64,000 nt of DNA, from assembly GCA_002224055.1 (NCBI GenBank), contig AZLU01000004.1, positions 511,405 to 575,404 on the forward strand, in the 5' to 3' direction. Below the pieces are notes generated by a model that worked only from the letters and a program-made list of their open reading frames with translations, ran no database searches and was not told the DNA's origin. A program made the position numbers and the translations under genes. This DNA comes from Pezizomycotina sp. ARF18. Lineage: Eukaryota > Ascomycota. Shown piece by piece: positions 6,509 through 48,477 of the stretch (within the stretch, counting starts at the first letter, position 1; each line of letters opens with the position of its first letter).

Positions 6509-6509
6509 C

Positions 6510-16411: not shown

Positions 16412-18510
16412 TTAATTATATTCAATCGTCGTAGATCCTAAGCTCTCTCCATCAAACACCAAGCTTCCCTCCATCGTTGCACCGTTTATAGTGAGCTCGA
16501 TGCAGAAAACGGCAATATAGAAAATCTCAGAACCCAGTCCGCCAACGCGTGCCTTTTTAAACTTGGACATGGGTACTTTGCTTAAGTCTGCATACACCGT
16601 TGCCAGGTTGAGCACATCTTCGTCCATGTAGCGCGAGGGTGCCCTGTCTGTATCTGCATACGCCAGTCTCGCACCGAAGATCATGGGCTCGTTCGCTCTA
16701 AATGTTCTGCAACAGTCCACCTTGGCGACCTTCGGTTTGCCTTGGGCCAGTAGCTCGCCCTGAAGTTTTCACGTTAGTCATATTTTATTAATTTTCTGAC
16801 GTAGTGAGAAAATCATACCTTTGTGAAAAGCCACTCCATTTGACCTTTGGCTCGCTTTTCGTGGGTGAGGTCATCGATGTAGCCGTCTCTCTCTTCGTGA
16901 ACACGTGGATCGAAGAGGACTGAAATGGGTGTTCCGTAGTGCCGGCGGCACCGGCGGGAGGCTACTAAACCTGCGGTGTCCTTTTCGAGACCTCGGCTAC
17001 GGCACCCTGACAAACCGCGGACCAGCTATTCCAGAGGTGAATACGAATCCATGTATTTCATGAATCTAAAGGGAAAATACGTACGCTTTCTGTAACTTTC
17101 TAACTTCGATTCCCTTCTTTTTGGCCCATTCTGTGACTTTCTCGAGGACGTAACCCGATGATCCGAGACCTCCGACGAGGAATATCGCTCGAACCTTGTG
17201 TCTATTCTTTTTCATTTCCTCTTCCTGTCCCGCAAGGAGCTCGATTATCGCCTTTATGGTAGGCTCGAATAATTCTTCCCAGTGTTCCTTACGCAAGATA
17301 AGTTCTCCGTCTTCGATTCCCATATCCTCGTCCTCCACGAGGTGGCGTAGAGAGGAAGGCAGTCGGACAGTGAATTCATCGCATTCGGAGTTAAACTGAC
17401 GTTTGCCTTTTTCGAACTGATCCATCATCTTGCTACCGGGAGATAGGTCACGGGCAGCGATCTTCGAGAAATTCTGCTCGCCCAGACGTTTCTTGAGATG
17501 TTCGACGAAGCGTGCATCGATGAACGTGGACCCGCATTTACCGCCTATAAGAGCCGAAATGATTTTTAGCGAAGTAACCATTCCTGATTTTGGGAATACT
17601 AGATATAATAAACGTACCAGTACCGACGGCGGCTTCAGACACCTGGAATGTCGGCTTGATTTGGTTGATGACGTAGGATATAAGATCCACGGTGCCACCG
17701 CCGGCGTCGCAGACAATGAACCCGTCACCGATGTTAATATCCCAATGAGACAAGCCCTCGTTGAGCGTCTTAAGGTTATAGATAGCGGCAGCTTCAGGCT
17801 CAGTGATGATAGAAATGGTATCCTTCGAGCCAGAATCCCAGCCGGCTTTCGTAGCGGCTTGGAATGTAAGGTCGCGGGCTTTGTCTGACCAAACAGCGGG
17901 TACGGTCACCACAATGTCACGCCCAGTGGTAGCGACTACTTGGGCCCCGTAGTGATCTTTGATAATAGACATGGCGTGTTCACGGACAGCTATTGTTACA
18001 CAAAATATTAGCACGATGAATACAACGGATAATAGAGTACGTTTCACCTTACCTCGCAAATAGTCCGTGACAACATCGACAGGCTTCTTCCCGTTGGGCA
18101 ACGGCGCAAAATCAAGGCCTCCACTGTCATCGTTCTCAAGCGCGCTTATCAAAGCTCGAGCATCCTGTAATATAAGCGCCTGGAAGATTTTTTCCATATC
18201 CTCCTTTGGAGTGCTCTTGTCAAGTTGCATTTTGGTAAATTTTTGCCTGGGAGCGCCGGGTTTAATCTGATATCCCAGCGAACTAAAGTCCCTCCCGCAT
18301 CGTTGTACTCAGCCTGCGAAGGGACCTTTTCGGCGGTTTGAGTCCCAAACCGGGCCAGTCCAGGATGACGTGAATGTCGGACATCTTCGACTTTGTGGTA
18401 TCACAAAAAGCGACACCGGTGAAAGTCGTGCCATAGTCCAAGCCGATTACGATGCGGTTTTCCTTCATCTCAGTGTGCTGCTGTAGCTGCTTCGACGAAG
18501 AAGTAGGCAT
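16412..18510 (-). CDS. Divergent Hsp70-family ATPase (fungal HSPA12-like type)
   Basis: Hsp70-like ATPase of the diverged type that is expanded in filamentous ascomycetes. Visible nucleotide-binding motifs are phosphate-1 VIGLDYGTTFTGVAF, the connecting VTVPAVW..KARDLTFQAATKAGW, ITEPEAAAIY, phosphate-2 VCDAGGGTVDLISY and the adenosine motif FLVGGLGSSGYVLE. The classical substrate-binding domain and EEVD tail are absent; a short beta-rich C-terminal part ends in STTIEYN. I place introns at 18052-17990, 17617-17545, 17084-17026 and 16818-16760 (59-73 nt; the last has branch ACTAAC). Single missing bases near 18330, 18273 and 16995 break the frame, and family sequence resumes each time. The start could also be the in-frame ATG at 18540 or the later one just before KENRIVIGLDYG; 18510 is a middle choice. 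Client and role are unknown. Confidence 0.85.
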
Positions 18511-18540
18511 AGATAAAAGCCGTATGTTAACAGCAAACAA

Positions 18541-19967
18541 GCCTTTTCTACCTCTCTATGAGGGTTTGCAGAAGAGCGATAGATTTCGTCAACAAGATTT
18601 ACAATCTAAAATAAGCAGAGAATTTTCTGAAGTCTCAGGTCGGTTTATTGAAAATATAACAGGCTAGAAACACTTTAATGGGCTAGCACGTAATGAGAAG
18701 GCTACGGGAATACTGATGAAATCTCAGAAGGGAGGGTAAATGTTTCCTGTCGAATTCATGATCACGCTGACTCTGCTTCCAAGCCTGGGAAGAAGTCTGT
18801 GCGGCCGATGCATCGAATCCTTTCTTCCGATATGCAATAATTTCTGAAAAAAAAAAAAAGCCTATGGAAATATTCTCTAATCATCCCGTACGGGCCCGTG
18901 TTTCAATAAAGTGTTCAGAAAATGATCCGTCATCCTTTGGCTACTGCAATACAGGCCAATCTTGCTTTTCTGCCCAAGAAAACAGAAACCCTGGAAGTCC
19001 AGAATTATATTGAGCCCCGCATATACTTTATCACCCCACTTTTTCCAGCCGTACGAAGATTAGGAAGTACCTTAAGGTACACCTATGAAGCTATAATGAA
19101 AGAAAACTATTACTATTCGAGGACTGATTAGTATTCAAGTATGTTGCACAAAGAATATTGTTGGAGCGCTTAACGAAGCGATTGACAAGCCGATGTCTAA
19201 GACAGGACGATGTCTCAGACAGGAAATGTGTGTTGCAGAGACAGTGGTGGATGCAGATAAAAGTCTGGGCATACATCGCATCGTCGCTTTCGCGGAGGAC
19301 AACGTTCGCGATGGGTCGCTTGACCCGTGAGCCAAGTTGTTGGAACGCATAGTCTCGTCAAGCTCGAGATAGGTGGGTTTTGGAATTACTATTACTAATA
19401 GAAAATGATCGACCTTTGAGGCAAAAGTGGGGTTTAGTTTTGTCTATATATCAGGTTTTATAGTCCATCATTGTTCGATAATTACAAAATAGCGGCTGAG
19501 GGTTGAGCGTGCATATATCCCAGTGGCACGACGGTGCTTTTCCTGTTGACTTGGGTATTTTCGCCATTCATATGAGGTCCAGGCGTTCGGTCATTCTCGT
19601 ATGTGCAGCAAATAGATAGATCGCCTGATAATGAGGCTGCGCCTACGAATCAGTCAATTGCTTGTGCGTTGATTGGGCGGGATATCTTGTGAATTGAGAC
19701 TAGGTTTCTTCTATCGATTAACTTGGGGAAATCTCTCAAACAATTTTAAATTTTACCAATGCTTTGAGATTCGGCTGCCATTTTAAGAGAATTTTCTACG
19801 ATCTTAGTTGAAAACACATTCCCAATTTTTCAGGCTTTAGTAAGACTTCATATACACTAGGCTCGGACACATACGGAAATTTCCCACTCATACTGATATT
19901 AGAACTTCTTTTACCACCAAAGCTTTACTCCAGTTCTCTCGCTAGGCTCAGGTCGTATCTTCTCCTT
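18541..19967. other. Intergenic region between divergent genes, no gene seen
   Basis: Lies between the 5' end of the minus-strand Hsp70 gene and the plus-strand coiled-coil gene, so it should hold both promoters. An A run occurs at 18847-18859. Short open frames at 18922-19131 (+) and 19091-19350 (-) have no recognisable content. Confidence 0.4.
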
Positions 19968-21670
19968 ATGCCAGAATTTTTGACCCTTTTCCAGAACGCA
20001 CCCCAGATCGCCGCTTCCTTTGTGACGGGTAGCGTTATGGGAACTAACGAGAGGGAATCCACTTTACTCGCCGCCACGAAGCATGCAGAATGGTCGTGAC
20101 CCAGACGTAATCGAAGACGAAGGCGCAGATGAAGATGTTGCCGGTGGAAGCAACACGGAAGTCGCTGCGAATGAGACTTCCGACATTGTTATGGAGGAAA
20201 CGAATAACCTTAGCGATGGAAATCAAGACGAGGAAGATGAAGATGATGGTACGAAATTTCATCTCTTTTGGGTCTAATGTTTTGTTTCCAGATTATGTTA
20301 AATGTGTGCTAATCTACCGCGTTAAAAGCAGGAGGCGCGTCTCTAGCGTATGCAGAAGCTGATGCGCAGAGGCAAGAACAAGAGCATAATGATGAGCGAC
20401 CAGCGCACGAAGAAGACGCGGAAGTAAACCCCCGCCAGCGTACAGTCGAGAACCCCCGGAAGCCGATCGGGTATCATTAAATATCCGGCTACGAAATAAT
20501 ACCGCCCAGAATACCATTAGGGAACAAAGCCGCCAGCGATCTGATCGTTCTCATTCTGGATACACACAATCCAGCAGGGCCGGCATTCACCCCCTCGAAG
20601 TCAACTACCGCGAACAGATCCGCACCCTCAAGAAAGAAAACGCGGAACTGTATCAAATGAAAGAAGACTTGCAGATACAATACTCCACTCTGAAGCGAGA
20701 CTTTCACATATGTACACGCAGGACGATCTAAATCAGTGGATTACTGCGTATAATTCCTATAAAATATCATACGAGGAATCGAAAGCAAATTTAGAGAAAG
20801 AGAAACGATCTTCTGCAAAGGCAAAGCAGGAATTAAAGCGTGCAATGACGGAAGCAAATTTACTCAGGGGCCAACACTTAGCTGGCGTGGAGAATAGACC
20901 GAGGATAGCGATGAGACCATTATGCCGATTGTGGAAACGGCAATCTCGTCTCTTGTCGACAAGCTTGCGAGGTCATCTAAAGGTTGCCATAAAGTCAAGG
21001 ATACGGAGCTAATCGAAGGAATGCTTAGGTTAGCACTTGTTGGGGAAGGCGTTACGGCGCAAGCATTATTGTAACAAAGCGCAAAGGAAGCTCGTTCGGA
21101 GCATAGTGTGGAACGAGCTTGTACGTAATATATTCTCGAAGCCTTTCTTTTGGCTTCCGGACGTCAAAGACGACGGAGATCAGGGTCCGCTATCCGGAAT
21201 AGGGAAGTATACGAAGCGCTAAGAAGTAAGTTTTCACCATGCTCAACTCTCAACTTTTCATCCGTGCAGAACTAATACCGTCGCAGAATCTTCAGGGAAG
21301 TCTGCAGCTGCATGGCGCAGTGATACAATTCACCGTCTCTCCGGCTGTGGAGTCAATATGTCTGAGCATATAAGCCGTTCTGTTCAAAGTTTTGCGCTGA
21401 ACTTCGAGCAAAACTTCAGGAATTGAACGTTGGCATCGCCGCGGGCGACATACTCGAGAAGATCGTAGAAAAGTCCGCGAGCTGTCTATTACTTTAAGCA
21501 AGGATCTGGCAACTTACGACTTTGCTACCATTCCAGTTGATTCGGAGGACTCTGGGAAGCTCCCGAGCTGGGTGTTAACCAGACCTGGTTTTATCAAGTG
21601 GGGTAACTCCCGCGGAGACATGCATGACAACCTTGCTGTCCTGTTGGAGGCCGAGCTCGAGGAGCTTTGA
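19968..21670 (+). CDS. Coiled-coil protein of unknown function, frameshifted
   Basis: The ATG at 19968 (MPEFLTLFQNAPQIAASF) appears to read through a frame change into an acidic segment starting NGRDPDVIEDEGADEDVAGG; an alternative start is the ATG at 20083. Intron 1 is 20249-20331 (GTACGA to CAG, branch CTAAT) and intron 2 is 21226-21286 (GTAAGT to CAG). After an Arg/Glu-rich linker comes a coiled coil (REQIRTLKKENAELYQMKED, later EESKANLEKEKRSS), then a folded C-terminal half with FSKPFFWLPDVKDD, GKVYEALRS, AAAWRSDTIHRL and a terminal SWVLTRPGFIKWGNSRGD. I recall proteins of this layout (coiled coil, W-R-S-x-T motif, terminal K-x-G-x-S-R-G) as uncharacterised ascomycete families, but cannot name one. 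At least five one-base shifts occur. The acidic head and coiled coil suggest a scaffold; that is inference. Confidence 0.6.
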
Positions 21671-22669
21671 GTAATACTATTTTATCTCGTGAGATATTAT
21701 TTAAATATAGAAATTTTACGTTCAATTGTGTAATTACACAGCATTTTAGTATTTGAATGTGAAAAGAAAAAACGCATGTAATTTTTTCCGGGAAATGAGT
21801 ACTACCTACTACTCTGAAAGTTAGCAATAATCATTTAACCATCTCCAACAGAGTCGCAGCCGCTATCAACACCATAGGTGTTTTTGTGAACTAAATTCTT
21901 AAGGATTTTATCAGTCCGTATATAGATAGCTAGGTACTCACTTAAGTAATTGCACCTTATATCAACTCTTTAGCAGACACTCATGACATTAGTCTGGAGA
22001 CCTTGTGAAGGTCCGCGGACTCATTTTCACCACACCGGAGCAAAAAATTATCAATTTCTTCTGACGACTTCCAATTATATATATATTTAATTTAGCAATT
22101 AAGCATCTCGGGCTCTTCTACAGTCAACAGACCGATCCGATTGATACGATTGAACAAAGTTCCCTATACTAGGCGTTGTGTCCATAGCTACTAGAGATTT
22201 TTTAAATAACCAATACTTCTGATAATCGTTTATATATATATACGGAATAGCTCAAGCTCCATCCCCTTATGTAAAGCTTGAATTAGCAGCTGGCGATGGT
22301 ACTCGCCTAACGTAGAAGTCGAATCATGCATTTATTCCGGAGCAATATATATATATCGTTCTTGTGCTCTTTTTGTCGTGGAAGTAGCGTAAATCATTTT
22401 CTTGATTTCTCACCAGTATTCTCTGGGTAGCTAATATTCAAGCAACGGTGCCCAACGGCTGCTACTCAATATAACATCTATATAAACAAAATGCTAATTT
22501 CTTTCAAATAAAATATATGTCGTCGTTTCTCTCCCTCAATCATCTAGAAGAAAGTGAAATCGTGAGTTATTGTCCTCATTTTATATTCGTCCCTCATTGT
22601 TCATATATCCTATTCGGCGACCTAAGGCAAGAAAGAAAAAAAAAAGGTTCACACTTGAAGTGAGATACC
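21671..22669. other. AT-rich spacer, no gene seen
   Basis: Contains several short TA repeats (near 22078, 22232, 22347) and no coherent open frame. It separates the coiled-coil gene from the next GC-rich coding island. Confidence 0.4.
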
Positions 22670-23272
22670 ATGGACCCTAGCAGAGGCAGAGGTACCCAGG
22701 ACGGCGTAGACCCTACCACCGTTACTATTCCACTACCGTTCCGGCAGCTATCACCCGCAGCACCATATCCACCCATACCGCAAACCGCATACAGCACCTT
22801 CACGGGCAACATCGCGCGGCCACTCTGACAATCATCACCACCATCGCGGAGGGCATGGAGGGCCGCGCGGGCGCGGGTACAGGCCTTGGCGTGAACAACA
22901 ACAAGGAATTAATGGGAGAGTTCGTTGTGGGGACCTCGAGGCTGAATAGAACATTATCGATAATATTAGGTGGTGTTTTGCAACCCCTATACCTAATAGG
23001 AGCGTCTTGGTGGCCGGTTCCAACTCGGATGGTCCAGAGCCTGGCTTGTCGGTTTAGTCCCTCTCACGTTGACAGTCATGGTCGCAGAGAATGGCGACCC
23101 CCTGCTCATGCTCTCGGATAGCCGCCGGGTCCCGTTGAGGCCGGGTGAGTCCGCCTTGATCGGCTCCATGCGCACAACATATGAGTATCCGCTCTCGTTC
23201 GCCTCCGCCGCGGACGTACCGGTCACCACCACAGCCTCCGCCAGCACGACGCCACGGCGCCAATGGGGGTGA
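22670..23272 (+). CDS. GC-rich frameshifted gene of unknown function
   Basis: The ATG at 22670 opens MDPSRGRGTQDGVDPTTVTI, a Pro-rich N-terminus. Frame changes then connect to a segment with GMEGRAGAGTGLGVNNNKEL and to a C-terminal part reading TVMVAENGDPLLMLSDSRR, then PLRPGESALIG, to a stop at 23272. In that last frame the third codon positions are clearly richer in G/C than the region as a whole, which favours the plus strand although the minus strand is also open (23247-22993). No family is recognised. The island is much more GC-rich than its AT-rich flanks. A TAA microsatellite begins 29 bases after the stop. Confidence 0.35.
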
Positions 23273-23300
23273 GCTACGTCACCGCTCCTGGCACGCGGCG

Positions 23301-23333
<33 letters not shown>

Positions 23334-23334
23334 T
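23301..23334. repeat. ATA/TAA trinucleotide microsatellite
   Basis: About eleven consecutive ATA units followed by a short AT run, directly downstream of the GC-rich gene. Simple sequence; length is likely to vary between strains. Confidence 0.9.
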
Positions 23335-24038
23335 ATATTAAATATTTTTTGCACTCTCGTTCCTCACTAAATTTCCCACAGGGCTAAAATAAATATTGTT
23401 TCATGAAACAAGTTGTTCCTAGAAGTAACTTAAATGTCATTTAACAAATGCTCGAGGAAATAATATGCATTTAAGTATAAGTATTTCTCTTCCTTCAATT
23501 CGTACATACGTGCACATTTTTTTTTTTTTTTTTTTTTTAGGGTTTCCGTGTGAGTGAGTGCTTTGTCACTATGATAATCTTAATACCTGGCCCAGATACT
23601 TTAGGGAGGAAGACACTTAAGTATTCTTATTAAAGTTGACTTCCTTTATTTTAAACATTTCTCTTTCCTCCCTAAATCGATTCGTAGCACATCGCCACCA
23701 TCAGAATCGAATTATTATCATTTGATTAGCCTTGGCCTAGTCGCCTGCGATAAATACTTAAAGTAAAACACTGGGCTGTATATCATATATATTAAGTATT
23801 TACTTTACAACCGCAAAAAAGGTATTACATTGGAAAATGTGCCCTTCTCCGCCGCCAGAGATCCTCTTAATTGTAAGGACCCCCTCCTTTTTATCTCGCT
23901 CTCCCTTTCTCTCTGCTTTTTCCAAGCTTCTACAAATCATCACTTTCTTTGAGTCTCGTCTCTCACCATTCACGCAATGAGTCTCGTATATATATATATA
24001 TTTACACGAAAAGAACTAGATCTTCAAGTCCATCACCG

Positions 24039-25015
24039 ATGCAGAAACTCTTCGAAACGTTAGCATTTCATGCTCGCTTGGGCGAGATGGCGTCAGGAGC
24101 TCCCACCCGGAGCTTTTTGGCAGATTGCGACTCTATGGCAACCGCCGCCATGCCGCTGACCGTGTCATGCTCATGGAGGAACTCGGGCTCGCATGGTACG
24201 TGCGGTCATTGGTCGTGTGTACATCGTCGTACTACGTCCCTTTACTCCGCTGATGCGATACCGAGACGGCTACGGCTACGGCTGTTCTCGTAGAGGGGAG
24301 GGGGTGTTTTACCAAGTCGTGGACGACTTGTACGGTGGCGATGTTTGGAAAGGGCTAAGTAATGCAGAAGTGATAGAGGGAAGGAGGCCGCTAAAAATGG
24401 AAACACGATGACAGAGGTAAAAAAAAAAAAGTCCAATTTTTTTATCTCCGCATTGTCTGCAAGCTACGATTTTATTATAAAATTATATATTTTTCAGAGG
24501 AAAGGGGAGCTCAAGCACTTTTTTTTGAGTCCACGGCAAAGTGTTATATATAGAATGCTGACGTGATTTCCATCTTTCTGCCTCCCCAAATAGCTCCAGT
24601 AATAATGGACAATTGTTGCCCGCTCACGGTGGCTCACGACCGCGAGCGAAAATTCGAAGCCCTCCTCTACTTCGTCTTCCGCGCGCTCGCGGAGGCCAAC
24701 CGCGGCGAACGACCTACGCCAATAAGCTGCAACTTCTTGCGGATGAAAGCGACGAGCAGCTGCTGGGAAACTCCGCGGTTCCCTAGCCACGAGAGCATAG
24801 CGCCAAAGATCTGCGCCTTGATGCTCAGCGCAGCCGTCACGAGGGCAGTGCACAACGGCCTACCGGACGCAGTGACCGCGCGGCGGTGGGCGTGTTTGGA
24901 CGTTAGCCTCGTCGCGTACGATGAAAGATACGTCAGCGAGGAGATACTTTTGGGAGGGAGTCTGGCAGGTATTCGCCGAACTAACTTGGGAGTTGCAATA
25001 CCTGTACGTGCGTGA
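24039..25015 (+). CDS. Two-part gene of unknown function, frameshifted
   Basis: The first part (ATG 24039) reads MQKLFETLAFHARLGEMASG, and in shifted frames RHAADRVMLMEELGLAWYVR and GVFYQVVDDLYGGDVWKGLS. An AT-rich interval of about 60-90 nt with a T-rich acceptor (TTTTTCAG near 24497) looks like an intron. The second part carries ERKFEALLYFVFRALAEANR, then YANKLQLLADESDEQLLGNS in another frame, and near the end YFWEGVWQVFAELTWELQYL. The helical, Leu/Val/Arg-rich texture and an 'AWYVRSL' segment resemble the LRR-like part of fungal F-box or DUF7730-type proteins, but no defining motif is present, so this is a guess. Codons are GC-rich compared with the flanks. At least four shifts interrupt it. 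Confidence 0.35.
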
Positions 25016-27929
25016 GCGTGGGGTAGCGATATAAAATCAACGTATAAGATTAGTGTAAAGAAATATAAGCTTTATCATGGAATTATTTGTGAAATGTTAA
25101 AAAAAGACATATATTAAACAAGGAATATTGTTCTGGTTTGTTATTCATTGTATTCATATGTATTAGTCTGGGGACCCTGCGAAGTACTATATATGGATGT
25201 ATTCTTATGTAATTTACGTTTTTATTTCCCATACCTATATGTAAAAATACCTCTTAGGATGGGATACTACTTAGTTGACTAGAAAGAAAGAAATATCCTT
25301 ATACGAATATACTTGAGGGTATGAGGGGCGAAATGCAGGGTTACTCCCCCACTCACAGGACAATCACGTAAAGATCAAGAGTTGAAAAGCCATAAGGGGA
25401 TATCTGAAAAAAAGAAACAAAAAAGAAAAAAGTGGAAAATAAAATAAATAGTAAAAACAGGCAGGCGGCAGTATCAGCTCCCTATTAATAATATTCATAC
25501 TCAATAAGTCAGCTGCGTAGGTAGTGCTATATATTTCTTTTCTAAAGAAGATACTACAAAGGCTAGATAAATTCCCAAGTAATCTAGAGAAGGGTGATAC
25601 TTTTCAATAACAAACGATAGTTAAACACAATCTCTTATTACCCCAGATTAGTTTCCTGAATTTGCACGAAAAGTTAAGGATTACAGCAACGACGCTTTGT
25701 ATAGCTAGACAGATAGGAACGTTACAGTACACCCGACGCGGCACGCCCCTTCTCCGATACATTCACCGGCTGGGCAGAACTCAGAAGCGTAAAGATTTTC
25801 ATTCAGGAACTCCTTAAAATATAATGGTATCTCGTTTGTTTGCAAGATGAAGCCATATTGAACCGAGCATTGACAGTTCGAGTTCGTAGAGCCTGGCAAA
25901 CATAATCTCCCATCTATGCCAGGAGTCAGTCGAGAAGTAAAATCATTAGTTCGCATATTGGAAATGTGATTTGCAAGATCCGCCCCTTACTCGAGCCGCT
26001 GATAAGGTAATTATCGTGAGTCTTCGTCCAGTCGTCGAATACCTTTTCGTCGGCGACGTTTATCTCAAACGTTAGAACTCTGTATTGGCCGCAGCCAATC
26101 TCATAAACTTAATAACGCGCACTTCTATCACGACCACCGTATAAAAAATCCCCGAGAGAGAAAACGGGGGGAAAGGTGCACGGCGTATACGTGATCCCAC
26201 ATATGCCCACGAAATACACTAACAAACATATCCAACTGGGGTTCATACCCGCGCTCTCAACGTACTTGCAAGGCTGACTAGAACAGGATAGCTTAGAGGC
26301 TTAGAAGCATTTCCAGTTGGCGTATACAATAATTACGAAAGGACCTTTGTCTTTCCATGAAGAAAGCTGACACAGAATTTATACCAAATCCATACGGCAC
26401 TGGATGCCCTGTGTGCTTTGATCGGCTAGAAAAGAGAAAAAAAAACGATCGAGGGACATGATACTTCCATGCTCGCCAGGACGTTAGCGTTCATACCACG
26501 CAATATTTTCATTACATTGCTTTATGACAAAAAAGACGCCGTCGAGGTAGAATCTCACGGCGGAACCGCATACCGGATATTTAGGGTAACTATTAATGCC
26601 GAGCGTGGAGCTAGAAGGCATAGGAAACACATAGACACTCAAAGCGGATCAGACTAGAAATTAAATCTGTCTTGTATAAACCAATATGACGTTAGATGCA
26701 GCTTTAAATTATAGCATTCCCATGCCAAAGACCGAGAGGAGCGGCATACTTCGACGCCTACGACCCGAACGAAGACCTCCACCACGGCATATTTGATGAA
26801 CATCTGCTTAAAAATTGGAAGGGATCAAGATCAGCTCTGAGGGAGAGAGTGTAAACAGGAAGAATACGTCGACGGTTTCGAACGTACCATGGATAAACAG
26901 AATAAGAAAAACTATCTCGAAGTGCGTACCGAAGATTAAACGAAAACCGCATACTTCTATCTGGAGGGAAGGCGGGGTTATGGTATGAAGAACCTTCACC
27001 CCTACGATAGAGAAGAAAGTAAAGGATTTTATCCTACTTAAATGCTCATCAAGATCCTCACATACACGAGTAGTGCGGTCTGCAATGAAGAGAGAACCTT
27101 CGAAACCGAACTACGGATACATTAATTAGTAAGAATATAACCCGTTTCTTCTCATAAATGAAGAAACTCCCACGGATGAAGCATTATCCTTATACCGCCT
27201 GCAAGAACAAAAACACCAACTTCACACACCTTTATAAACCTAAAGCCAACGAACAACTTTTATCGAGAGTGGCATCGTGCGACATAGGCGGAGACAAATT
27301 GAATGGGATACCGGACATAAGCACCGTAACAACCTGGCTCCACGGTTCCTAAATACCCCTTCCGTCGTGAACATATTATGATCCTTGGAAGTCAGGAAGC
27401 GATACTACCATCCTAAAGGAAAGGGAACCTCACAAAACAAGAACCATGCAACCCACAATGACTTAGGACTTTGTCTTCCACTCATAGCGCCACAAACCAA
27501 AAGATTTAGCCATATGACTACGTACTCTATAAGCTTCAAAACAAGCGGCTTTCAGCATTAAAACCAGTAATCATCCCTCGAGGAGCCAATCCACACTATT
27601 ATAGGATCAAGGAGAAGTCCAGAATGAACTGCAGAATTATGATAACATTACTTCTCCCGATTCTTCAAGCCGGCACAGAAACAAGGATACGATGATCAGG
27701 GGAAGTACTGAACTGATACTTTCATTCTCCCCATACCACTCACGAAACAAAGCACTTGCTTGTCTGCGTTGACAAATTTCCTAAAAAAGAAGCGCCAAAT
27801 TAAATCATCAACAACTTTTACTAAACCTTCCGGACCCGACGTCATATTCCAAGAAAAGGTAGACGCCATAACTCCATAAACGCTTGAGCAACCCCTCTCT
27901 TCCTGCTGTTTCAAGTTGCCGCAGCAGGG

Positions 27930-28640
27930 AAGGAGACGATACTTTCATCCCAAAACGAAAAATACACATATCAGGAACATACAGACCAACTACAATTGTA
28001 ACGCCGGCGCTTTCTTCCATACGTCCACAAAAACAAAAAAGCCTACCCAATTGTCCACTTTGCATAAAACGCCAAAACTCAACCGTTTCTTATTATAGAG
28101 CCACCTGTAAATCCTCTACCATTAGGATACAGCCTCATATTTCTCTAGAAAATAGATGTACTATATATAGCCTTAAACGGGATACAATTCTTCTCCCATA
28201 TACGCAAATACAGATTTGATTTTGTCCGCACTCTTAAATGTTTCTCCGTCCACTAGGGCAATTATGGAAAAAACACTATCATAGATAGATCGGGGAATTA
28301 GCCAAGGAAACCAGAATACTACTAAAATGGGAGCCCGCAATATTATAATCATTTCAACAACACATCTCCCAGATATTCCAAAGCTCTAAACCACACGCGA
28401 TACGATTCGCCTTAAGGGAGTACTTAACCGATTACTTTTATCCCGAACCATCATGTAGCAACACCATACGACCTCACTTTGAAATCAGGACTGAAATCAG
28501 GAATTCCATCTTACCCTTTCATAACACCCACAAAAACAAAACACGGATTTCGAACCTCCCCCCCCCCCCATAAACACCCAAAGTAAGCGTTTCTTAGTAT
28601 AAAACGACTAGCAGTTCTCTACAGGGGATATTCCAGAACC
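27930..28640. repeat. Diverged tandem repeat, period about 495 bp
   Basis: Segments near 28013-28070 and 28508-28560 share TTTC-x-x-ATA, then CCACAAAAACAAAA. Segments near 28081-28131 and 28590-28640 share a CGTTTCTTA-x-TATA block followed by a CTCTAC block. The spacing between corresponding blocks is about 495-510 bases. The identity is low, so the array is old. Confidence 0.35.
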
Positions 28641-28999
28641 ATAAGTAGTCTTAGAAACGAAATCTACAATGATATAAAAACACTTTAACAAACCCCGTCC
28701 TCATTCTTCGATCGCGCAACGAGGATGGAGTACGGCGATCAGAGTAGATGCTGAACCGATACTCTTTTTTTTCTGAAACAGAAAGATCGTGCATCAAAGC
28801 GTACGGTTTCCTTCCCGTAAAACCAACTCATAGACTTCTCCCAATCGGTGATATTAGGCAAGACTGTCTATGGAAAGCTTGAAAGCTGCTACGACATGAA
28901 CGCCTTAATGACCTCTCACGCTTCTTCATTCATCTCCCGAAGCAAGCATGCGATGCTCACGGCAAGCCGATAATTTCATCATATAGTCTTATTTCTATC

Positions 29000-30823: not shown

Positions 30824-33567
30824 TTATCTACTCGTCATCCTCGAAGGCGTCGCGCTGGGTCCTACCGTCCGGTCGAGGTTCCTCATGCGGATGTTTTCGC
30901 CGGAAGCGCGGCGGCCGGTGGAGCTGCTGGACACGAGGGGCGACATGGCCATCGGGGCGGGCTTGATTTCGAGGAAGTCGCGAAGTTTGCCCTGTAGAGT
31001 AATATCATCAGTTAGCTATTGTATCCCTTAAAATACAGTATTGTAAAAACCCCAGAAAAAAGAGAGATAAAAAAAAGGTCTTGGTTGAGCGAGGAGAAAA
31101 GATAATAAAAACGTACCTTTCCAACCTCCATAACCTGCATCCCCGTGGCCTGTCCCACGCTCATCATCGGACCCCAAAGGTTAAGCGTCCACGTGATGTA
31201 CGCGCCCGCACCCGCGATCAAGAGCATCATGAAGTACAGCGGGTTCATGATGACGGCCCACATCTCGTTCCAACCCAATACGAGCAGCAATACGTAGAAC
31301 CAGAAGGGTACCTGAGATACGGAAGAAATGGTACCCCTCTTCGCGTCCACGAACGCCTGGTCCGCTTGCCGCTGAAACGCTTCGGTTAAGCTCGCCGTCC
31401 GACCGGGAGTAAGGATGACCATAGTCTTGCTGGAGTTCGGCGAGCGGGTATCCTCTTCTTCGTCAGAGTCGTTGCCTTCCTCATTGTGGTCGATCGTGGT
31501 AGCCGCGCCAGCGCCACCAGTGGTGTTGGTGGGGCTTCGGGAGGCGCGGGGCCAATGAATTCGGAGAGCTTGGGTTCGGTGCCACTTTCGAGCTTGAAGA
31601 AGGCGAGGCGGGGATGAGCTGCTGTACGGCTTCTTTGGCCTTCTTAAAGCCCCCTCGATGTCGTCGGCCGCACGCCAGACGCGGGGCACGCCGGCATCGT
31701 CGTACCGGAAGGATTTGTCGAACATGGCCATGAGGCGCGTAAGCACGGCAGGCTCTCGGGTTTCTTCGTCGAGAACCTCACGGAGCACTCTCCACGCACG
31801 CTTCTTGAGGGAGTATACGGCACGGGCGTCTTCCTCTTTGGTCGAGTTGAGCGCCGACGATTTAGACAGGAAAGTATCGATCTGCGAGGAGACGGAGCTC
31901 GTCCACAATTCCCAGATCCGCTGGTATAGCGTTGGAGATATGGTCTTGAATTGGAACGGAACCCCTTCGTCGTCACTAGCGAGCTTGTTCTTGAGTGACC
32001 GTTCCATGCGGTTCAGCAACCTGACCATCTCCTCGCCTCTCAGTCTCGTTGCGACATCGTTGAGGTCTTTCTCAACAGCTGCCTTCTCTTCCTCGTACTT
32101 GAAGACGCCCTTCATGGAGCAGCTCTCAGCCTCCTCGTTGAAGGCGGTCAAACTTCCCCTCGAGTTGACTCGACGAGCGTCGCGAAGTCTACGCCGCCAC
32201 GCTTGATGCCCTTGATGATCGTCTCGGAGAAGATCGAAGTGGCCCGCCTGTGTGCGGCCGCGAGCTGGGCATTGAAGAGCACCGCAGGCGAGAAAGCAAC
32301 TTCTTCTCAAGCTCCTCGAGCTTCCGGCCGTAAACTCCCTTATGGTACCTGCTAGCCTGCTCCTTGAATTGCGTCATCGCGTCCGTCCGGGCTTTTTCCA
32401 TGGCCTCGCCGAGTCCAGGAAGCACCTGCTTGTTCGATAGCTTCTCCTCGAACGGCACGATGATCGAGTCGAACCCTTCAACGCAAACGACGGATATCTC
32501 GTCGCATCTGTACTGCGCGAGGAGCTCCTGCTGGGTGGGCAGGTCGAGGTCCTTGTTTTCGGTGATCATGCGCCAGATGTTTGCGGCGTAGTGGGGCAAA
32601 CCATCTGCGGGGATGCGGCGGTGGTAAGCGGGCAAAAACACCGCTGAGTCTTTCCCTTGGCATTGCCATTGGGGCTTGTGCTCGCCGACGTGGCATCCCT
32701 GAACCGCAGCCGCAGCTTTTTCGTCTCCGCGACGAATTATCGGGCTGGAGAATCTTGTGCGGTAGGGCAGTGAACGCGAAATCGAAGAAATCGTTGATGC
32801 GGGAGTTTTCCAAACCAGGGGGCTTCGAGAGGCCGTGCCAGATGTTATTCAGGTCGGCCATCAGCGTATTAGACAGATTCTCGAGCGGGGTGTGGCCGAT
32901 GTGGTCCCTGATGACGAAGAAGAGCAGGGACCGGTGCGCCGTGCTCTGGTCTTCTGGAAGAGCTGCAGGTTGACCTCGAACACCGTCTTGAGGAGGCCCA
33001 TGTTGGCTCCTTGGTAAAGACCCACCTGGTGCTCCCATATGTTCACAATGAGCACTTCCGTTGCGAGCGCGAACAGCGCCGATTTTCGCTCAAAGTCTTG
33101 GTCTTCACCGCGCTCTCTGCCGTCGGTTCCCTCGACGTCGCAAACGAGGATGCTGTCGGACATGGTGACCCTATCGGAGGAGCCGTCGGCGGTACCTGTT
33201 ATGTGGTCCGGGTCGGTGGCTTTCGACATCCATATACCCTTCGTCGTCTGCTGCCGCCTGGTCTCGTCCATGACGGGGAAGGAGGTATTGAAGAGGTGAT
33301 TGAGGAGCGTCGATTTACCCGTCGACTGCGAGCCGAAAACGGAGATGAGGTGGTAGGAGAAGCCGGCATTTAGGAGGTTCACATCCTGGAGGTATTCCGG
33401 GAGTGCCGTTCTGAGGGTAGCCGGTCAGCAACACCGTAGAATGAAGCAGGGGGACCTGATACCTACGTGAATTCCTTGTTCTCGTCGATGATCTGGAGCC
33501 CGTGGCCCAATTCCCCTTCATCGGGGTTGTACTTGCCGTTGCCATTAATGCCGTTGGCGTGAACCAT
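30824..33567 (-). CDS. SEY1: Sey1, atlastin-like dynamin GTPase for ER membrane fusion
   Basis: Fungal orthologue of atlastin/RHD3 that fuses ER tubules by GTP-driven dimerisation. Motifs in order: P-loop GSQSTGKST, switch [38 protein letters not shown] motif [15 protein letters not shown], then the helical middle domain ([41 protein letters not shown]). Two adjacent membrane helices follow ([40 protein letters not shown]) and a short cytosolic tail. Intron 1 is 33466-33411 (56 nt, GTAGGT, branch CTGAC, CAG). Intron 2 is 31116-30992 (125 nt, GTACGT, branch CTAAC, CAG); its last exon encodes [16 protein letters not shown] to the stop at 30824. At least eight one-base losses interrupt the frame (near 32951, 32736, 32650, 32283, 32158, 31645, 31610 and between 31500 and 31560), and each time normal Sey1 sequence resumes. 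Probably a whole gene behind consensus errors. Confidence 0.95.
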
Positions 33568-34972: not shown

Positions 34973-35011
<39 letters not shown>

Positions 35012-39005: not shown

Positions 39006-39253
39006 CGACAGCTGCGGAAGATAACCATTGCAGAATGCATTTCCGATACATTTTTCAGCCACAAAACCCAGTATTCTGGAAGACCCTCAAAATAATTAAG
39101 GGGCTTTATGATCGATAGAAGAAATTACAACAGATTCGCAGACGTCATGGAGCCTATGAAATCCGGGGGATCGTTGAGCTCTCACGACATCCGTTTTATT
39201 TTTATGCCGAGGCAAAACTTATGTTATTTTTTCGGATCCCACCTGAAAGAAAG
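39006..39253 (+). CDS. Internal exon of an unknown plus-strand gene
   Basis: This stretch is bounded by a TTTCAG acceptor at 39005 and a GTAAGT donor at 39254. In between it reads RQLRKITIAECISDTFFSHK, then, after one stop that looks like a frame slip, FMIDRRNYNRFADVMEPMKS and IRFIFMPRQNLCYFFGSHLK. The combination of tight splice sites and coherent sequence makes it a likely exon. Further candidate exons downstream are about 39650-39728 (ending at a GTGAGA donor, with DVTGVTAKLCTTIQCIEWCE), 39830-39950 and 40070-40343. It may belong to the gene ending at 37617 or to a separate gene. No family is recognised. Confidence 0.35.
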
Positions 39254-40343
39254 GTAAGTAGAGCAGCGTTATCTGCAGGAAGCGAGAGGATTATCCCTTT
39301 CAACATTGTTGGAAAATATAAATAGTCATAATAAGAACATTAGTAGACTCTTTTCATTTTCGAAACGAGTGGCATTCCGATCCTCCCTGTATTGTTCATA
39401 TATCCGAGAAGGAAAAATTCGTAACCGCTTTTTCATTTGATTTCTCTTCGGAACAATTTGGCATGCTGACATTTGTACCTCGATTTGAGTAGAGAGCCAA
39501 ACAAAAAAGTCCCTTCCAGGTATTCGTCTGGGCGAGCAATGCGGCTCGTAAATCCTCAAAGAAGAAATTAAAATTTGAAAGAACAATTGATATACTAGGC
39601 TATTTTATAGCATCTATTTATATCCGGGAAGGACATCAATGAGGCTAATATGGATGTGACGGGAGTGACGGCAAAATTATGCACGACCATACAGTGCATC
39701 GAATGGTGTGAATTGGCGATATCGGTGAGATATTCGGTAAAAAAAAAACGAATCCAATTATTTCTACTATTTTCGTGCTTCCGCTAAGCGAATGATGTGC
39801 TTTTTCCTGATAGGCAAATAATATTAATAGCGACGTTTATTTAGATTCCCACCGGCCAGCACACCGAGAAATCTTGCCACATCTTTTTGCGCCTATCTTC
39901 TTCTTTTGGGCCCGCTCCGCTCGAAAGTCCCGATAACGCTATCAAGAACGGCAAGTGTTCGTACCACTTTTGTCTTCCGGATAAACGTTTTGTCTAACAT
40001 TTTTTGAGGGATATAAATTTTTTTCTTTCTTTCTTTTTTCCTAAGATCTATTTTAGAAAAAATGTTTCTTTAACTTGGGACGTGTTTACGGCTGACTCGG
40101 AGTCGTTTTTTGCTAGCGGATCTGCCGTTGCAATTGATGACTGACGATGGCTCGCATGCTAAACGAGACAATTCTTCTAGAAGGAATCTTCTTTTTATCT
40201 CACGAAAGGACAGGTCATTACGTGCCATTTTAGCATCGTGCTTTATGCGCAAAGGCCCGCGTGCGTGGCTCAAATGGAAAGTTCGAGTTCGAGGATGGAT
40301 GATATTCCATCGTTATCACCTTTTTCACCTGCATATTGTGTGA

Positions 40344-41331
40344 TAGACAAAAAGATTTCCGTACTCGCTATCAAGAATGTCTCTGCCTTTCCTTATCTCG
40401 AGGAAGTTTGATTTTCATCTGCATGTCCATTGTGGGCTTTTGAGATGCCCGTTTCCTCCATTGCAGGATGCACGAGCTTGACGTGCAGCCTGCCAGCCTG
40501 CACTCTCGGAGTCTTTCAATGTTTGCATCCGCTTTTTCTTTTATCTTGATTTGAATTCTGTTTTTCCTTTCCTTCTCTTTTTTTTTTTTTTTTTTGCCCT
40601 CTTGAATATCTCTTGGTAACCTAACTTGAGACTAGCATCCCGAAAGACACGCAACCACTTGAGGGAACATTTTTTTGGGGAAAAGTTTCGACTTTCGCTT
40701 TTTCGAGTGAAGGCTCCCAAAGACCAATTCTGCAGTCTTCTTTGCTAAGAGCTCAGCAAACAGAAATAAAGGACACAGTATATGCAAACGAAAGGGAATC
40801 GTTTTCTTTGTTTCACTTCGTTTCTTCTTCATGATGTTTATCGACAGTTTTTGTTCAATGCGCTCCTCTTATTAGGAAACGAAATGAAATGGGGAGGGAC
40901 TGAGTTGGATTTCGATAGAGAGACCTAGAGCAGCTCAACGAACCCCGTAGAGTATTCCTCCTTTCTTTAATTTTCGAAGGCTAACTGTTATAGGAAAAGA
41001 ACATCTGGTTTTCAAGCCACTTGAAAGGCACCTCTGCATGGGGGTTTCCTTCTTATTTCTTCCCTTTTTGTGGGTTGCTTTTATCTATCGTTGAATTCAT
41101 GGTGGTCTTTTTTCTTTTCTTTGCCTTCTGTTTTTTTTTTTTTTTTTTTTTTTTTTTGGCGCCATCAATGTACCTAGAAGAATGTTCCTTGACCATTCCC
41201 TGCAGACAGGCACCCCGAACCTTCTTCCGCCCCCCCTTCCCACTTTTGATCTCCTCTCTCCACTATTTCCCTTTTTCCATTTTTTATCTTTTTTTACCCC
41301 CTCATTATATCTAGCCCTTAGATCTTAAAGA

Positions 41332-41362
<31 letters not shown>

Positions 41363-43506
41363 GTAAGGAATTGTTTTTAATGGTTCGCTTTTTCTTTACT
41401 GCTAACGTGAGTATTGTGGTATATTTCAAAAATCTGCTCCAGGGTTTTCAACGTTTTTTGTACTTTCTTTGTTTGTTGACGTTTTACGTGTCTCGCAGCT
41501 CTATTAAATCCCCGTGGAGTGTAACCGTGAGCTTGAGAGCCATGCGACTAGAGCTTATTTTGAGTTCTTTTGGTCCGTGAGGCAGAGTCTTCTTTGCGGG
41601 ATACGCTGACGACTCGATATTCTAGAAAGAAAGAAGGCACCTCCTTCGAGTTCTTCTTTCGGGCCTCACTGCCGGTTGTTATCCTTACGTTACGTATACA
41701 TGAATAAAAAGAAAGAAACTGACAAGCTACTTAGTCAATTGAGCTCTTTTTTTTAAAAAAAAAGGAATACAGTATAACTGGAACTTTTTTTATTTTTTTT
41801 ATAACCAGATAAACCCTACGCAGATATACATGTTTCGAAAAGGGGAAAGAAAAGCAATCAATATATAGAAAAGAAGAAATGAAAATCTTTTCGCTACAAT
41901 ACCACCCATACAAAGCTATACTGGGATGAATGTACATACATACAACAATATAACACGTTAACAGAGCTGAGGCAAATACCTGTGATCCTCCGCGTATAAG
42001 ACGGGTATACTGTGCGTATATATAAGCACCATTAAATATATATTCCCTCTCATACTTACTACATACATGGGCGTTTTCTTTCTCCTCTTCGCCTCATCTT
42101 TCCGAATTCCATTTTTCAGAAGATAAGAACCAGCTGCTTTGAATTTTTTTGATTTGGTTTTTTTTTTTTTTTTTTTTTTTTTTTCAATTTAAATAATTTG
42201 GGTTGTATAGAAATAAAATATTTTCGCAGTCTCTTTTTACTGCCACCAATCTAACTGGTTCTAATCACCATCTCTTTCCTCTTTTTTTCCATCTTTTCCC
42301 TCTCCCTCTCCAGAACTATTTTATCCACCTCCTCGATATATACGGACGACTACCCACCCAGAGGTCCTCCTCCCCTTCCCTTCTGTTCTTTTCTATTTTG
42401 TTTTATCCCATTTTTTAGTAGTATATTCTGTTTTCAGTATCCGTACTCTCTTTTTCCTTTTCTCTTGTTTATCCTTTTTCAATATATATTTATTACCTTA
42501 TCATAGCGGCTTTTTAGGCCGGTTTTCATTCGTTAATTTTCTTTTGGTAAGCGGTATACTTTTTCTCTCTCTACGCAATTCTTCTCCTTTGTGTTTTCGT
42601 AATTTTTTTTTTTTTTTTTTTTTTTTTACATTCCTCCGCCTCCTACAAAAAAGCAGCACAGGACCCTTCTTCGCCTTTTCCCCGTTACTGCTATTTCTTT
42701 ACTTTACTTTTTTTTTATCTCCACCCAATCCCTACACGTTTTTATCTCTTTATTTCTCTGCTGCATTTTTTTCTTTTGCCTGTGACCATCATCATACAGC
42801 ATACGGCGTACAGCATAAAGGACCAGGGAAACTTACACTTTTTTATAATTATTTCTTCGATTTTTTCAGAACCCCTTCATTTCGTTGTCTTTTTTCTAAT
42901 ATATCTGGACCCTTTTTTTTCGGACGTGGCATCATCCCTTTGGAACAGATAACCCCCCCCTCTTCTTTGCAGCAATATAAAAAAGAAAAAGGAAAAGAAA
43001 CAGGAAAAACCTATATACCTCGTTTAGAATTAGATCACCCTGTTCTGAAGCGAAGGAATTCTGCAAGATACACGAAAGAAACCCTTTTTTTTTTTTTTTT
43101 TTTTTCGACGGGAAGGAAGGAGTTCGACATCAAGGACGCAGCACGCCATCTAGGAGGAAGATAAGAGAATATAATACATACTAAAGAATTTGGGAGCATT
43201 TAAAAAAGGAGACGGAGTGTGTACATGATTTTGTGGTGGCAGACTGGTTAGATTTTGACATATAAAGGATATTCCTTTCGTTTTTATTCGTTTCTTCTTG
43301 TTTGAGGGGCTCTTCAACTTTTCTTTTCTTCCTATTACTTCCGCCACAGCACAAGGAACGAACGCCTTTAATCCTTTTCTCCGCGGTAATCATCGAGTTA
43401 AAACAGCCACGGACGAAGAATAGAAATCTAAGAGGAGGGACTCGAAGAAACAAGAGTTAGAGAAAGGACACCCTTTCGACGAAGAGAGAGAGAGAGAGAG
43501 AGGACG
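40344..43506 (+). promoter_or_regulatory. T/C-rich upstream region and leader of the MGA2/SPT23 gene
   Basis: The plus strand is extremely pyrimidine-rich, with T runs at about 40580-40597, 41131-41157, 42160-42184, 42603-42627 and 43085-43105, and an A-rich tract at 41329-41362. Open frames here (for example 42544-43164, 206 codons) are Phe/Leu-rich products of this skew. A GA microsatellite (about ten GA units, 43485-43501) ends five bases before the start ATG at 43507, so it lies in the 5' leader. T/C-rich promoters and leaders are common for highly regulated fungal genes. Confidence 0.4.
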
Positions 43507-46500
43507 ATGAAGAAGGAATCTAACGTCCAGGTCGACAGCGGATACCTAATCAACGGATCGGAGGAGCTCGAAGGGGACGGCATTGAGTTTTTCGGTGGGA
43601 ATTCGTATGGCGGCCCGACATTGAACGGCGTAGACTCTTCCGCTGCGGCGATTTCGTCTTCGGTCACCAGATAAGTAACTTTGGCGTGCAGCCGTCGATA
43701 TATCGCGATCAGAATCAAGGTTGGTAGTTGGTTTCTTTCTTTTTATATTTCTAAAGTTGCTGTCCCGCTACAATACTTCCTATTTAAGAGAGGGTGAGGA
43801 GGGTTGCAAATTTCTTATTATTTTATTTATTTATTTTTTTTTTTTTTCTTGTTGTATAGGTAGCTGCTTGCTTACTTCAGCCGCTCCGTTTCCTTTATTT
43901 TATTTTATTTTTTTTTTTTTTTAAATTATCCGGAAACCACGCACACACCCCACCGTCGTAAATTGCGCTTTTTATTTTATTTCCATCTCATTTTAATCTC
44001 CCCTTGGCTAATAAAACGAAAATCTGTTCTTTTCTTCTTCTCCCGATGACTTGAATTACTATCTACAGTATTTTCACCATCACCTCCAGAATCACAGGGA
44101 CCGTCACCGAAATCCTTCAACTCGTCACCGAAATCGGCGACGTCGATGTCCCCCGATAACGTCTCCCTGTCGCCGAGCGGTAACCCGAAGATGGGCACCG
44201 TCCACCCTCAATTGTCCGACAATGACCTCGACTTTTCGATGCTCGACGAGCAAGGGAACATCAGCGGTGCGAGCGGCCTGGACATGTTCTCCGCGGGGGA
44301 CCTTAGCATGGACGCCGACGGGATGAACGAGCTTTCGGCGAACCAGTACTTTGACTTTGAGAGCGCCGCTAGCTCTCCCCTGGCATGGCGATGGGGGGTA
44401 ACACAGCACCTCAGCCCAATAATGTTCCTAGATCGTTCGCACCGTCGACTTCGCAGTCTGCCGTAGCAGCACCCGTTTTTGCCCCCAGGGTGCCGTATAC
44501 TGCTTTACCCACGAGCAACGGCTTGATCGATGACGTTTTGAACGGCGGCGAGCAGAAGCCCGAGGTTACTTCGAGAGCATCGCCGAGGATGGTTGCGAAT
44601 AGCAGGAAGAGGAGGAGCGAGATACCGCCGGATTACTCACCGATTTCACCGACGGGTGGGATGGCGATGCTGAATTTTGACACGGGGGCACATCCTTCGC
44701 CGACGAGCTCGCATGCTTCCGTTAGCATGAATGGTGGCTCGCGGCGGGGCTCGAAGCGGACGCCTACCCCGCCTAGCTCCGGTGAAGAAGATGGTATCAC
44801 GATGAGGCCGACGAGTACGATGTTCAATTCCTCCGCGAAGCAGGCGTGGAGTCCAAATTCGTTTGCCATAGCCCTTCGCCGCTCGCGCAGGCTATTTCGC
44901 TAGGATACGGTGCATCGAATATCGGAAGCTCGCAGGACCACTACTCGCTACGCCTCCGCGTGACCAGGGACCCGAAGGCGACCGGATAACGAAAAGTCCC
45001 GCGTGGAGACGCAGATACGCATTAACCTAAATTTAAAACCTCTCCCCGCGGTGTTACGAAGATCCACCTCCCTTCGCACACCATCTCGAAGGCGAAGCTG
45101 CTGTGCAAACCCCCGCACCAGAAATCGCCCGATACGCTCGAATTGTATACCAGCTCGTGTGCGCTAGTGCTGTCGATAACAACCCCGAATTCATGGCTCG
45201 TGCGTTGAAGCGTGCGTGTGATGATCCGTTGCAGGAACAGGCGTTTGGAATACACGAGGGTAATTCGATGTTGGGTCCGACGACGGGCCAGGCTGATGCG
45301 AAGACTGTCGATTCGCGGGATAATAAGGATTTGGGTATTGTGACGGACGAGGATAAGCCGCTGAATGGTGGCGAAGTACGAATATGTTCTGGCTGTATTG
45401 TTCGCGAACGCAAGAGGGCGGCTAGGAAGAAGATAAAGCGGGCGGAGGAGGAAGAATTGGTCGCAGCAGGAGGGTGGAGGATCGTCGTGTTCAACATTAA
45501 CGAGGTTATCGACTGGTCCGTACCTGATGGTCTGAAGAAGGCAATGGGCGGTGAGGATTCCGGCCAACTCCTGATAGACGATAGCAACCGCGAGGAAGGT
45601 GCGGAGGTTTGGTTGCCCATGAGAATAGCCTGCTACTGCCGCCACCAGAACGAGAAGATCGGGTTTAGGATAATTTTCACGCTGAAGGATTATCAGGACA
45701 ACCTAGTCGCCCAGAGCATAACTCCGCCGATTTTGATTACTGACGACCACAAGACACCGTACCGCTTAGTGGCAATACGACTGCTACGCAAACCGCCACA
45801 TCGTCTACGACACCCCTTTCGACACACCAAGCGTTTTGATCGGAGCTTCTCCCCTCCGATGGCGCAAAACGCCGTTCCGGTTTTAGTACAGCGAATGGCC
45901 ACCTTCTTATTCCGCATCCGATACGAACTTGCTCGGCTTGACGCAACCCCAGAATATGGCGTTCAGGCACCCGAATATGCAGATGCAACCGCCGCAGTCG
46001 CAGTTACCGGTGCACCACGTCCTCATTCGAGACACCGTCTGTTTCTGCTCAAGGCAGGCGGCAGCACAGCAACAGGCGGCAGCATCGATGATGAACGGGC
46101 CTTCGGCGAAGAAGAGGAAGGTAATGCCGCTGGAAAGGTACGGAACGAGCTTACAATGACCAGATTGGACGATGCTTCGCCTCCGGCCACTCATTCTGCA
46201 CTCCCGTTCTTTCCCGGGAACCGCTTCGTTCAATTTCCCACCGTCGTTCGGTCCAAACGGTGCTGCATTCCCCGGAAGCAACCCCTCGACACCAATTAAA
46301 TGAGGCCAATGGTTTTGGCTACCACTCTCGCAGTCAAAGTATGGAAGACCTACAAGCATTACACAACATGTTCTCCCAGGCGTCGTCGGCGCGCGGTTCG
46401 CGTGCTCCCAGTCCGGCTGCGCAGCAGAACGCTTTGGTTTTCGCGCAGGCAGCACAGACGCAAGCTAGGCAGACGCAGTTTAGTCCAGCGCAGTTCCAGA

Positions 46501-48477
46501 ATCAGATGATGAGCACGTACAGCAGCAAGGATGGTGCCGTTTGATATCACGCGAATCGTTCCGACGGAAGGTCCGTGCCGCGGTGGTATCGAAGTTACCG
46601 TTCTCGGTTCTGGATTCACGAGGAGTCACGATGTTGTTTTTGGCGATACAGTTGCGCCGAAGACGAGTTCTGGAGCGATACTACCATGGTGTGTCTTTTG
46701 CCTCCGGCGGCCGCGGGCGGTATTGTTCAAGTTGTTCTCCGAAATGCGGCGCAACCTCAATTGCAGCTCCCCGGTCGCGGAAAACCGTTCTTGTACGCCG
46801 ATGACACCGAACAAAAAATGCTTGCCCTGGCGCTACAAGTCATTAACGCGAAGTGGTCTGGTAAGGTTGAGCCACCGAAGATATCGCGATGCGGTTACTC
46901 AGCGGCGATGATAAGAGTGGAGGTTCCATGGCGCCTTCTTCTGGATCCGGTGGTTCTGGACAACAAAGTAGGACATATGCGCAGCAGTACCTCAGCAACG
47001 ACCCCGTTCCGGCGCTCGAATCGCAGCTCCTTAAAGCTTTGGACGTCATCGACATGGACGACAGCTCCTATCCGGCCAAGTGGAACCTTAGGAACAAGCA
47101 AGGGCAGACGATGCTGCACCTCGCTTGCTGTCTTGGCATGTCGAGGTTCACGGGCTGCTCTGCTGGCCCGCGTGCTAACCCTGACATTGTTGATAAGGGT
47201 GGCTACACCCCGATGCACTTTGCAGCTCTACATAACCACGCCGACCTCGTCAGACGGTTAATACTTAACCGTGCCGATCCGAGGGCACTGTGTCTTCTGG
47301 ACAAACGCCTGCAGATCTTGCCACGCACGGTGACGTCATACAAAAGCTCACCCGTGGTAAACGTAGCCGAAGAGGTAGTGCCGCTTCGGTGGCTTCTGCG
47401 CTGGCAAGTTTGGTGGTCGCGCGAGTAGGTCTGGAAGCTTGTCGACTAGGCCGTGGGATGCGGATGACAATGATGACGAAGCCGACGACGATGATGAGCC
47501 TGATAGTGACGCTGAGGAGCTGTGGTTACGACCGAAGAGGCCGCCGATGGCTACGCTCCGCGAAGCTCCAGCAAGACGCACCTCCGCATGATCCCCCGAT
47601 TGCATCGATCACTTGGCGTCGCTCGGGTCGTCGTCTGCGCCTGCGCTTCCGTTGGAGTCTGAAGAGTCTGACGAACCGACGAAGGCGGCCGTGCTCCGTG
47701 CCGCTTGGTTAAATGGCTGGAATTTCCCTAATATTAACTGGAACCTCCCCAACATCCCCGGAATACCTAGCCCAGCGGCTTATCACATCTTCCCGAACCC
47801 CGTCGCCGCGTTTGAATGCGATGATGAACCAGAACGGCGAAGGCGAGCCGAAGGAGACGGATTACAGGTGGTGGGATCTTTCTCTAATCTGCGCCTCCTC
47901 CCGCGGCGTCGAATTCTCCGGCTGTGCCGCCGCCGGCGTATGAGGATATTTATCCCGGGAAAGGTGCTGTTGTTAATCCTGGAGCTGTGTTTGATCCGGA
48001 TGTCAAGAACGAGGAGGTACGGCTGGGAAGCGTCGACGTCGATTGAGGCTGATATTGAAGGTTGGAGTTGGAGGGATCGGAGCGGAGTAGTTCGTCGGCG
48101 AGCACGCGGAAATCTAGCATTGCTGTTCCGTCGTCGGGTCGGATTCGGAGGGGAACAAGACGGCGGCGCAGAGGGTTCATGAGGCGAAGATGCAGCGGAT
48201 TGAGAATGATCGGAAGCTGTTTTTCTTTGGGTATGTTGAAAACTCCTTTCTCTTTTAGTTACAAGTACATATTGTTAGTTGGATAACAGGCTAACGGATT
48301 TGTGTGTTTGTTAGTTACCGCTGCTCTTAATAATCCTCTTGCCCTGTCGAACAGCTGGGAACGCAGGCTTTCTTCGCCGTGAAGACTACGTACGTCGTCG
48401 TCCGGGAACGCATGGCTGCTGCTGCTGAAGAGGCTAGGGCTGCTAGGAGGCTTGCGGGGTTGAATGTTGCTGTTTGA
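43507..48477 (+). CDS. MGA2: Mga2/Spt23-like membrane-tethered transcription factor (IPT/TIG + ankyrin)
   Basis: Yeast Spt23 and Mga2 are ER-anchored precursors that the ubiquitin-proteasome system releases to switch on fatty-acid desaturase (OLE1) and hypoxic genes; this is the expected role. Order seen: an acidic Ser/Pro-rich N-terminus (MKKESNVQVDSGYLINGSEE), then the conserved N-terminal domain (VETQIRINLNLKPLP, NGGEVRICSGCIVRERKRAA, MRIACYCRHQNEKIGFRIIF, ITDDHKT). Next are a Gln-rich linker with a basic AKKRKV patch, an IPT/TIG domain (RIVPTEGPCRGGIEVTVLGS..FWSDTTMVCLLPP), ankyrin repeats (NKQGQTMLHLACCLG, GGYTPMHFAALHNHADLVRR) and a C-terminal hydrophobic anchor (about FFFWLPLLLIILLAL). 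Introns are 43720-44068 (349 nt) and 48231-48314 (84 nt, branch CTAAC). Ten or more one-base shifts occur; the one at 46660-46664 is AAGGAC read as AAGAC. The anchor exon is hard to place exactly because of shifts. Confidence 0.9.

Follow-up and report, generated by a model that had tools for sequence, protein, structure and literature searches.

The 64,000-nucleotide stretch analysed here (the window; bases 511405-575404 of contig C4 in the 46.36 Mb, 408-contig assembly GCA_002224055.1 of Pezizomycotina sp. ARF18) contains conserved genes whose reading frame changes repeatedly, and it raises the question whether these genes are broken in the fungus or only in its assembled sequence. The missing bases are almost certainly an ordinary artefact of the consensus and not a feature of the living organism, and random, deletion-biased consensus error of an unpolished or poorly covered long-read assembly is very probably the best explanation of the losses. 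The genes of the window that bear on the question are the following.

6392..7305 (ends approximate), plus strand: PQ-loop gene, one frame of which matches part of the repeat only
16412..18555, minus strand: divergent Hsp70-like gene that contains introns and, against a weak reference, shows two single-base losses
About 30968-33525, minus strand: SEY1 (atlastin/RHD3-type GTPase) gene, placed by frameshift- and intron-aware alignment
44050..48179 (ends approximate), plus strand: MGA2/SPT23-like gene, with DNA-binding domain, TIG domain and ankyrin repeats spread over different frames

The SEY1 gene was aligned with a protein-to-DNA aligner written for the task, which handles both frameshifts and introns. 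Against an ascomycete SEY1 the alignment covers 757 codons with eight one-base losses, two introns, no gains and no in-frame stops (nine losses when introns are forbidden with the same reference), in agreement with the original prediction of at least eight frame changes in this gene. The use of this reference is supported by 55% identity over the 757 codons. One of the introns lies close to the 5' end and another perhaps close to the 3' end. The Candida albicans Sey1 chain, for which a structure has been solved, gave ordered matches to successive open frames (residues 39-189, 193-261, 278-391, and 445-600), the frame changing each time. Aligned in pieces, this more distant protein (about 36% identity) yielded one loss and one gain when introns were allowed and two of each when they were not; such a gain may be a pair of losses resolved by the closer reference. 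A search of the assembly for a duplicate of the SEY1 region found the SEY1 locus alone.

The remaining genes of the window are more divergent or less completely matched. The Hsp70-like protein reaches 19.2 bits for PF00012, below the cut-off of 20.6, and its alignment to Escherichia coli DnaK (336 codons, 31% identity) contains two losses and two introns, so that the frame changes proposed for this gene were found but their number, given as three, was not. In the MGA2-like gene the DNA-binding and TIG domains share one frame and the ankyrin repeats occupy another. The PQ-loop match (6395-6937) falls outside the interval 16412..48477 to which the original prediction had been assigned. A search for Rfam RNA genes returned no match in the window, nor in 14 and 18 further loci.

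The spectrum of frame changes was determined on six nuclear genes aligned to references 34-68% identical: SEY1, four Hsp70 genes (on contigs C49, C70, C3, and C208) and the gene for F1-ATPase beta (C404); the window Hsp70-like gene, with its two losses in 336 codons, is counted apart. Over 3,421 codons the six genes show 58 one-base losses, three two-base losses, one gain and no stops, a density of 5.7 one-base losses per kb. The Hsp70 genes contribute 40 one-base losses, two two-base losses and the gain, and F1-ATPase beta (68% identical to E. coli AtpD) contributes 10 one-base losses, one two-base loss and no gains. Intact E. coli dnaK and hscA (about 43% identity), aligned to each other in both directions as a control, gave no shifts at any of four shift penalties. 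When the penalty was raised from 12 to 26 on the five genes other than SEY1, one-base losses fell from 57 to 32 and gains stayed between 0 and 2 throughout. The rate of loss varies among loci (five genes, p = 0.02). Frameshift-aware protein alignment, the check proposed along with the original prediction, thus resolves the shifts into almost exclusively single-base losses, and the accompanying observation that no substitution-type stops occur holds over all 3,421 codons.

The same spectrum bears on whether the genes are nuclear pseudogenes in real decay, for example under relaxed selection or repeat-induced point mutation (RIP). As read, the frames are indeed broken. Decaying genes, however, accumulate substitutions and stops, and RIP leaves C-to-T changes, whereas these genes show nearly only losses and not a single stop, and conserved sequence resumes directly after each shift. 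F1-ATPase beta is an essential gene; only one locus for it was found, and that locus is broken. Real decay is therefore a highly improbable account of these genes.

The extent of the phenomenon was examined by two surveys that depend less on alignment. In a coordinate survey of Hsp70, CCT, and SdhA genes on ten contigs, 12 of 12 genes counted change frame at least once where an intron would not fit; 30 of the 52 junctions are shifted in this way, 15 can be explained by an intron and seven are unchanged. Among the 30 intron-free shifted junctions 23 are loss-like and seven gain-like, and the latter may be two-base or double losses. The counts leave out nine of 38 Hsp70 rows (C3, C44, and C10), three of 33 CCT rows (those on C70 and one overlapping row on C20), one of six SdhA rows (C303) and two further match tables entirely. 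The CCT genes enter by coordinates only, as their comparison with GroEL produced no alignment above the score limit used. A reference-free coding model was run over both strands of the window and of 20 slices. In 11 of the 42 passes it met strong coding signal, 7.8 kb in all, with 17 loss-like and four gain-like switches; in simulated intact genes the same model gave five loss-like and two gain-like switches in 72.7 kb called coding. Comparison with 140 E. coli open frames of at least 200 aa from six stretches matched Hsp70 loci only, with no match in the window or in 20 random slices. The claim that unrelated conserved genes are all broken alike thus extends well beyond the window, to all 12 counted genes of three families on ten contigs and to F1-ATPase beta on another.

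The placement of the shifts was analysed in the five aligned genes other than SEY1 and the window Hsp70-like gene. The intervals between losses (n=48) have a coefficient of variation of 1.01, as in an exponential, Poisson-like process. Nothing but the shifts themselves speaks for programmed ribosomal frameshifting of nuclear genes, which is opposed by this random spacing and by the sites: the most widely shared hexamer occurs at no more than 4 of 50 shift sites (the background maximum averages 4.07 and reaches 7), and a stop stands at the shift in 2 of 50 cases, no excess over the 4.1% of the background. Of the explanations weighed here it is the least probable, and close to negligible.

The identity and run context of the missing bases bear on the kind of error. 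The original prediction was that mostly one G is lost from a G run on the coding strand. Among the 58 losses in the six genes, A is inferred as the missing base in.25, C in.31, G in.28, and T in.17 of cases, and simulated uniform loss predicts.25,.31,.24, and.20, respectively. Simulated loss of G only predicts.30-.39 for G and loss from G runs.34-.45, and simulated loss of G and C only fails on A; the power of such base inference is modest, as pure G loss would shift G only to about.35. Since loss confined to G or to G runs would raise G above the observed share, both models are excluded within that modest power, and the statement about G runs fails across the six genes in favor of a near-uniform missing base.

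A related possibility is systematic homopolymer under-calling of the nanopore type, in which runs of G or C on either strand come out one base short. It is favored by an enrichment of runs of three among the inferred loss sites (.152 vs..102, with a uniform 95% range of.075-.136), by the scarcity of GG pairs around 53 losses relative to background codons (.19 vs..35), as expected if a pair had lost one G, and by the near absence of G runs of 7-12 (one seen vs. 25 of length 6, small counts obtained without a control genome). On the other hand, roughly half of the inferred losses fall at single bases, and no model restricted to G, to G and C, to G runs or to runs of any base reproduces every observed value; uniform loss also fails on two of them, T (.165, range.176-.237) and runs of three, but by less. 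Over 259,684 bases, again without a control genome, G and C run-length counts drop evenly with ratios of.20-.24 up to length 5, no depletion of G and C runs up to length 5 or 6 being seen, and A and T runs as long as 38 (T38) stand unbroken. The losses may favor G or runs to some degree, because T falls slightly under and runs of three slightly over the uniform range and GG pairs are depleted around losses. Systematic under-calling is unlikely and accounts for the data less well than stochastic, coverage-limited loss; as it is a sub-kind of the same artefact, its odds overlap with those of the preferred explanation. The poly-T tract at window positions 34974-35011 and other poly-T and poly-A tracts of the window run without interruption for up to 38 bases, which would be unexpected if homopolymers had been collapsed.

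The mitochondrial contig (C50, 231,088 bases) provides a comparison within the same assembly; five of its loci (L009-L013) were examined, with alignment references taken from the contig itself. Open frames of 505 and 311 codons hold complete LAGLIDADG domains and align to each other shift-free over 294 codons. The alignment of a third copy (497 codons) has two gains, one stop and no loss, a 45-codon alignment contains no losses, and a fourth frame, matched weakly (216 codons at 30% identity), has two. The sum is two losses in 1,052 codons, compared with about 18 expected at the nuclear rate, and none in the 791 well-aligned codons; natural decay also affects intron-encoded frames such as those of the LAGLIDADG type. 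Because sequencing depth is normally far greater for mitochondrial than for nuclear DNA, the far lower density of losses suggests an effect of read depth, although cleaner mitochondrial DNA alone would also fit a biological process confined to the nucleus.

Several further features of this contig were recorded. Matches to cox1 are scattered over more than 70 kb, together with many LAGLIDADG intron frames. Two diverged copies of cox1 exon 1 with its LAGLIDADG intron frame lie at L010:1420-2938 and L013:1432-2946 (near C50 positions 136069 and 91811); one is open (505 codons), and relative to it the other carries two gains and a stop. In a tRNA search in which 63 of 1,606 candidates were scored, 33 of the 54 matches listed are on C50, and the search is uninformative on nuclear tRNAs. 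Large fungal mitochondrial genomes of the order of C50 have already been published, according to excerpts of the literature.

One nuclear-only process that could leave such a pattern is insertional RNA editing, by which RNA would regain bases truly missing from nuclear DNA, through a system that leaves the mitochondrion largely untouched. In its favor, almost every change is an absent base, and such changes are common in nuclear genes but scarce in the mitochondrial loci examined. Against it, the spacing of the losses is exponential and the missing base near-random, whereas editing would be expected to insert specific bases. To our knowledge no insertional RNA editing system of this kind exists in fungi, and we consider that editing is a very improbable source of the losses.

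Consensus error thus remains the preferred explanation, and its course may be outlined as follows. The nuclear consensus lacks roughly 5-7 bases per kb in aligned genes, the absent bases being single, randomly scattered and nearly independent of base identity, and each such loss in coding DNA shifts the frame, so that genes appear cut into pieces. A deletion-biased consensus built from too few error-prone reads and never polished with accurate reads is the likely origin, and high-copy mitochondrial DNA would have supplied enough reads for a much cleaner consensus. What is observed is that bases are lost across contigs, at random intervals and at a much lower density in the mitochondrial loci examined; from this we infer long reads, low depth, the platform and a lack of polishing. 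The original attribution to systematic long-read consensus error is accordingly upheld as regards consensus error, the losses being genome-wide, single and random, striking an essential gene and being much rarer in the mitochondrial loci examined, but not as regards its systematic nature, given the near-random base and run context. Watson and Warr (2019), as cited in PMC9985148 and PMC12007338, reportedly drew attention to gene-fragmenting indel errors in unpolished long-read assemblies.

Two other observations concern the assembly itself. Young repeats, considered as a clock of indels and substitutions in 20 slices and the window, comprise two short local pairs of at least 120 bp only, one of which shows two mismatches and four gap openings in 142 bp, too little for a clock. 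The AT-rich slices L028 and L040 contain masked stretches of 1,699 and 2,617 N. In practical terms, gene predictions, domain counts, and pseudogene and absence calls made on this assembly cannot be relied on before it has been polished, and other findings from the same genome that are based on frame, stop or single-base evidence deserve discounting.

Among known systems, the mitochondria of Physarum resemble the present case in that their DNA lacks single bases that the reading frame needs (PMC3285571 and PMC5192504, in part). As far as those excerpts go, editing there is mitochondrial and mostly of C, the commonest insertion (PMC3285571), whereas here the losses are nuclear and exponentially spaced, the base is near-random and the mitochondrion is much cleaner. 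The closer likeness is to unpolished long-read assemblies: portions of two reports (PMC9985148; PMC12007338) describe indel errors that break genes in uncorrected assemblies, and in the main test assembly of the latter most of these are false deletions; the single-base changes found here are likewise almost all losses, which run throughout genes and break frames while protein similarity continues. The density differs, the peak figure in the available part of PMC12007338 being 187 indels per 100 kb compared with about 5-7 per kb in the aligned genes of this fungus. The context differs as well, since some of the error profiles described there are dominated by homopolymers, unlike the present losses, which are not clearly concentrated in them.
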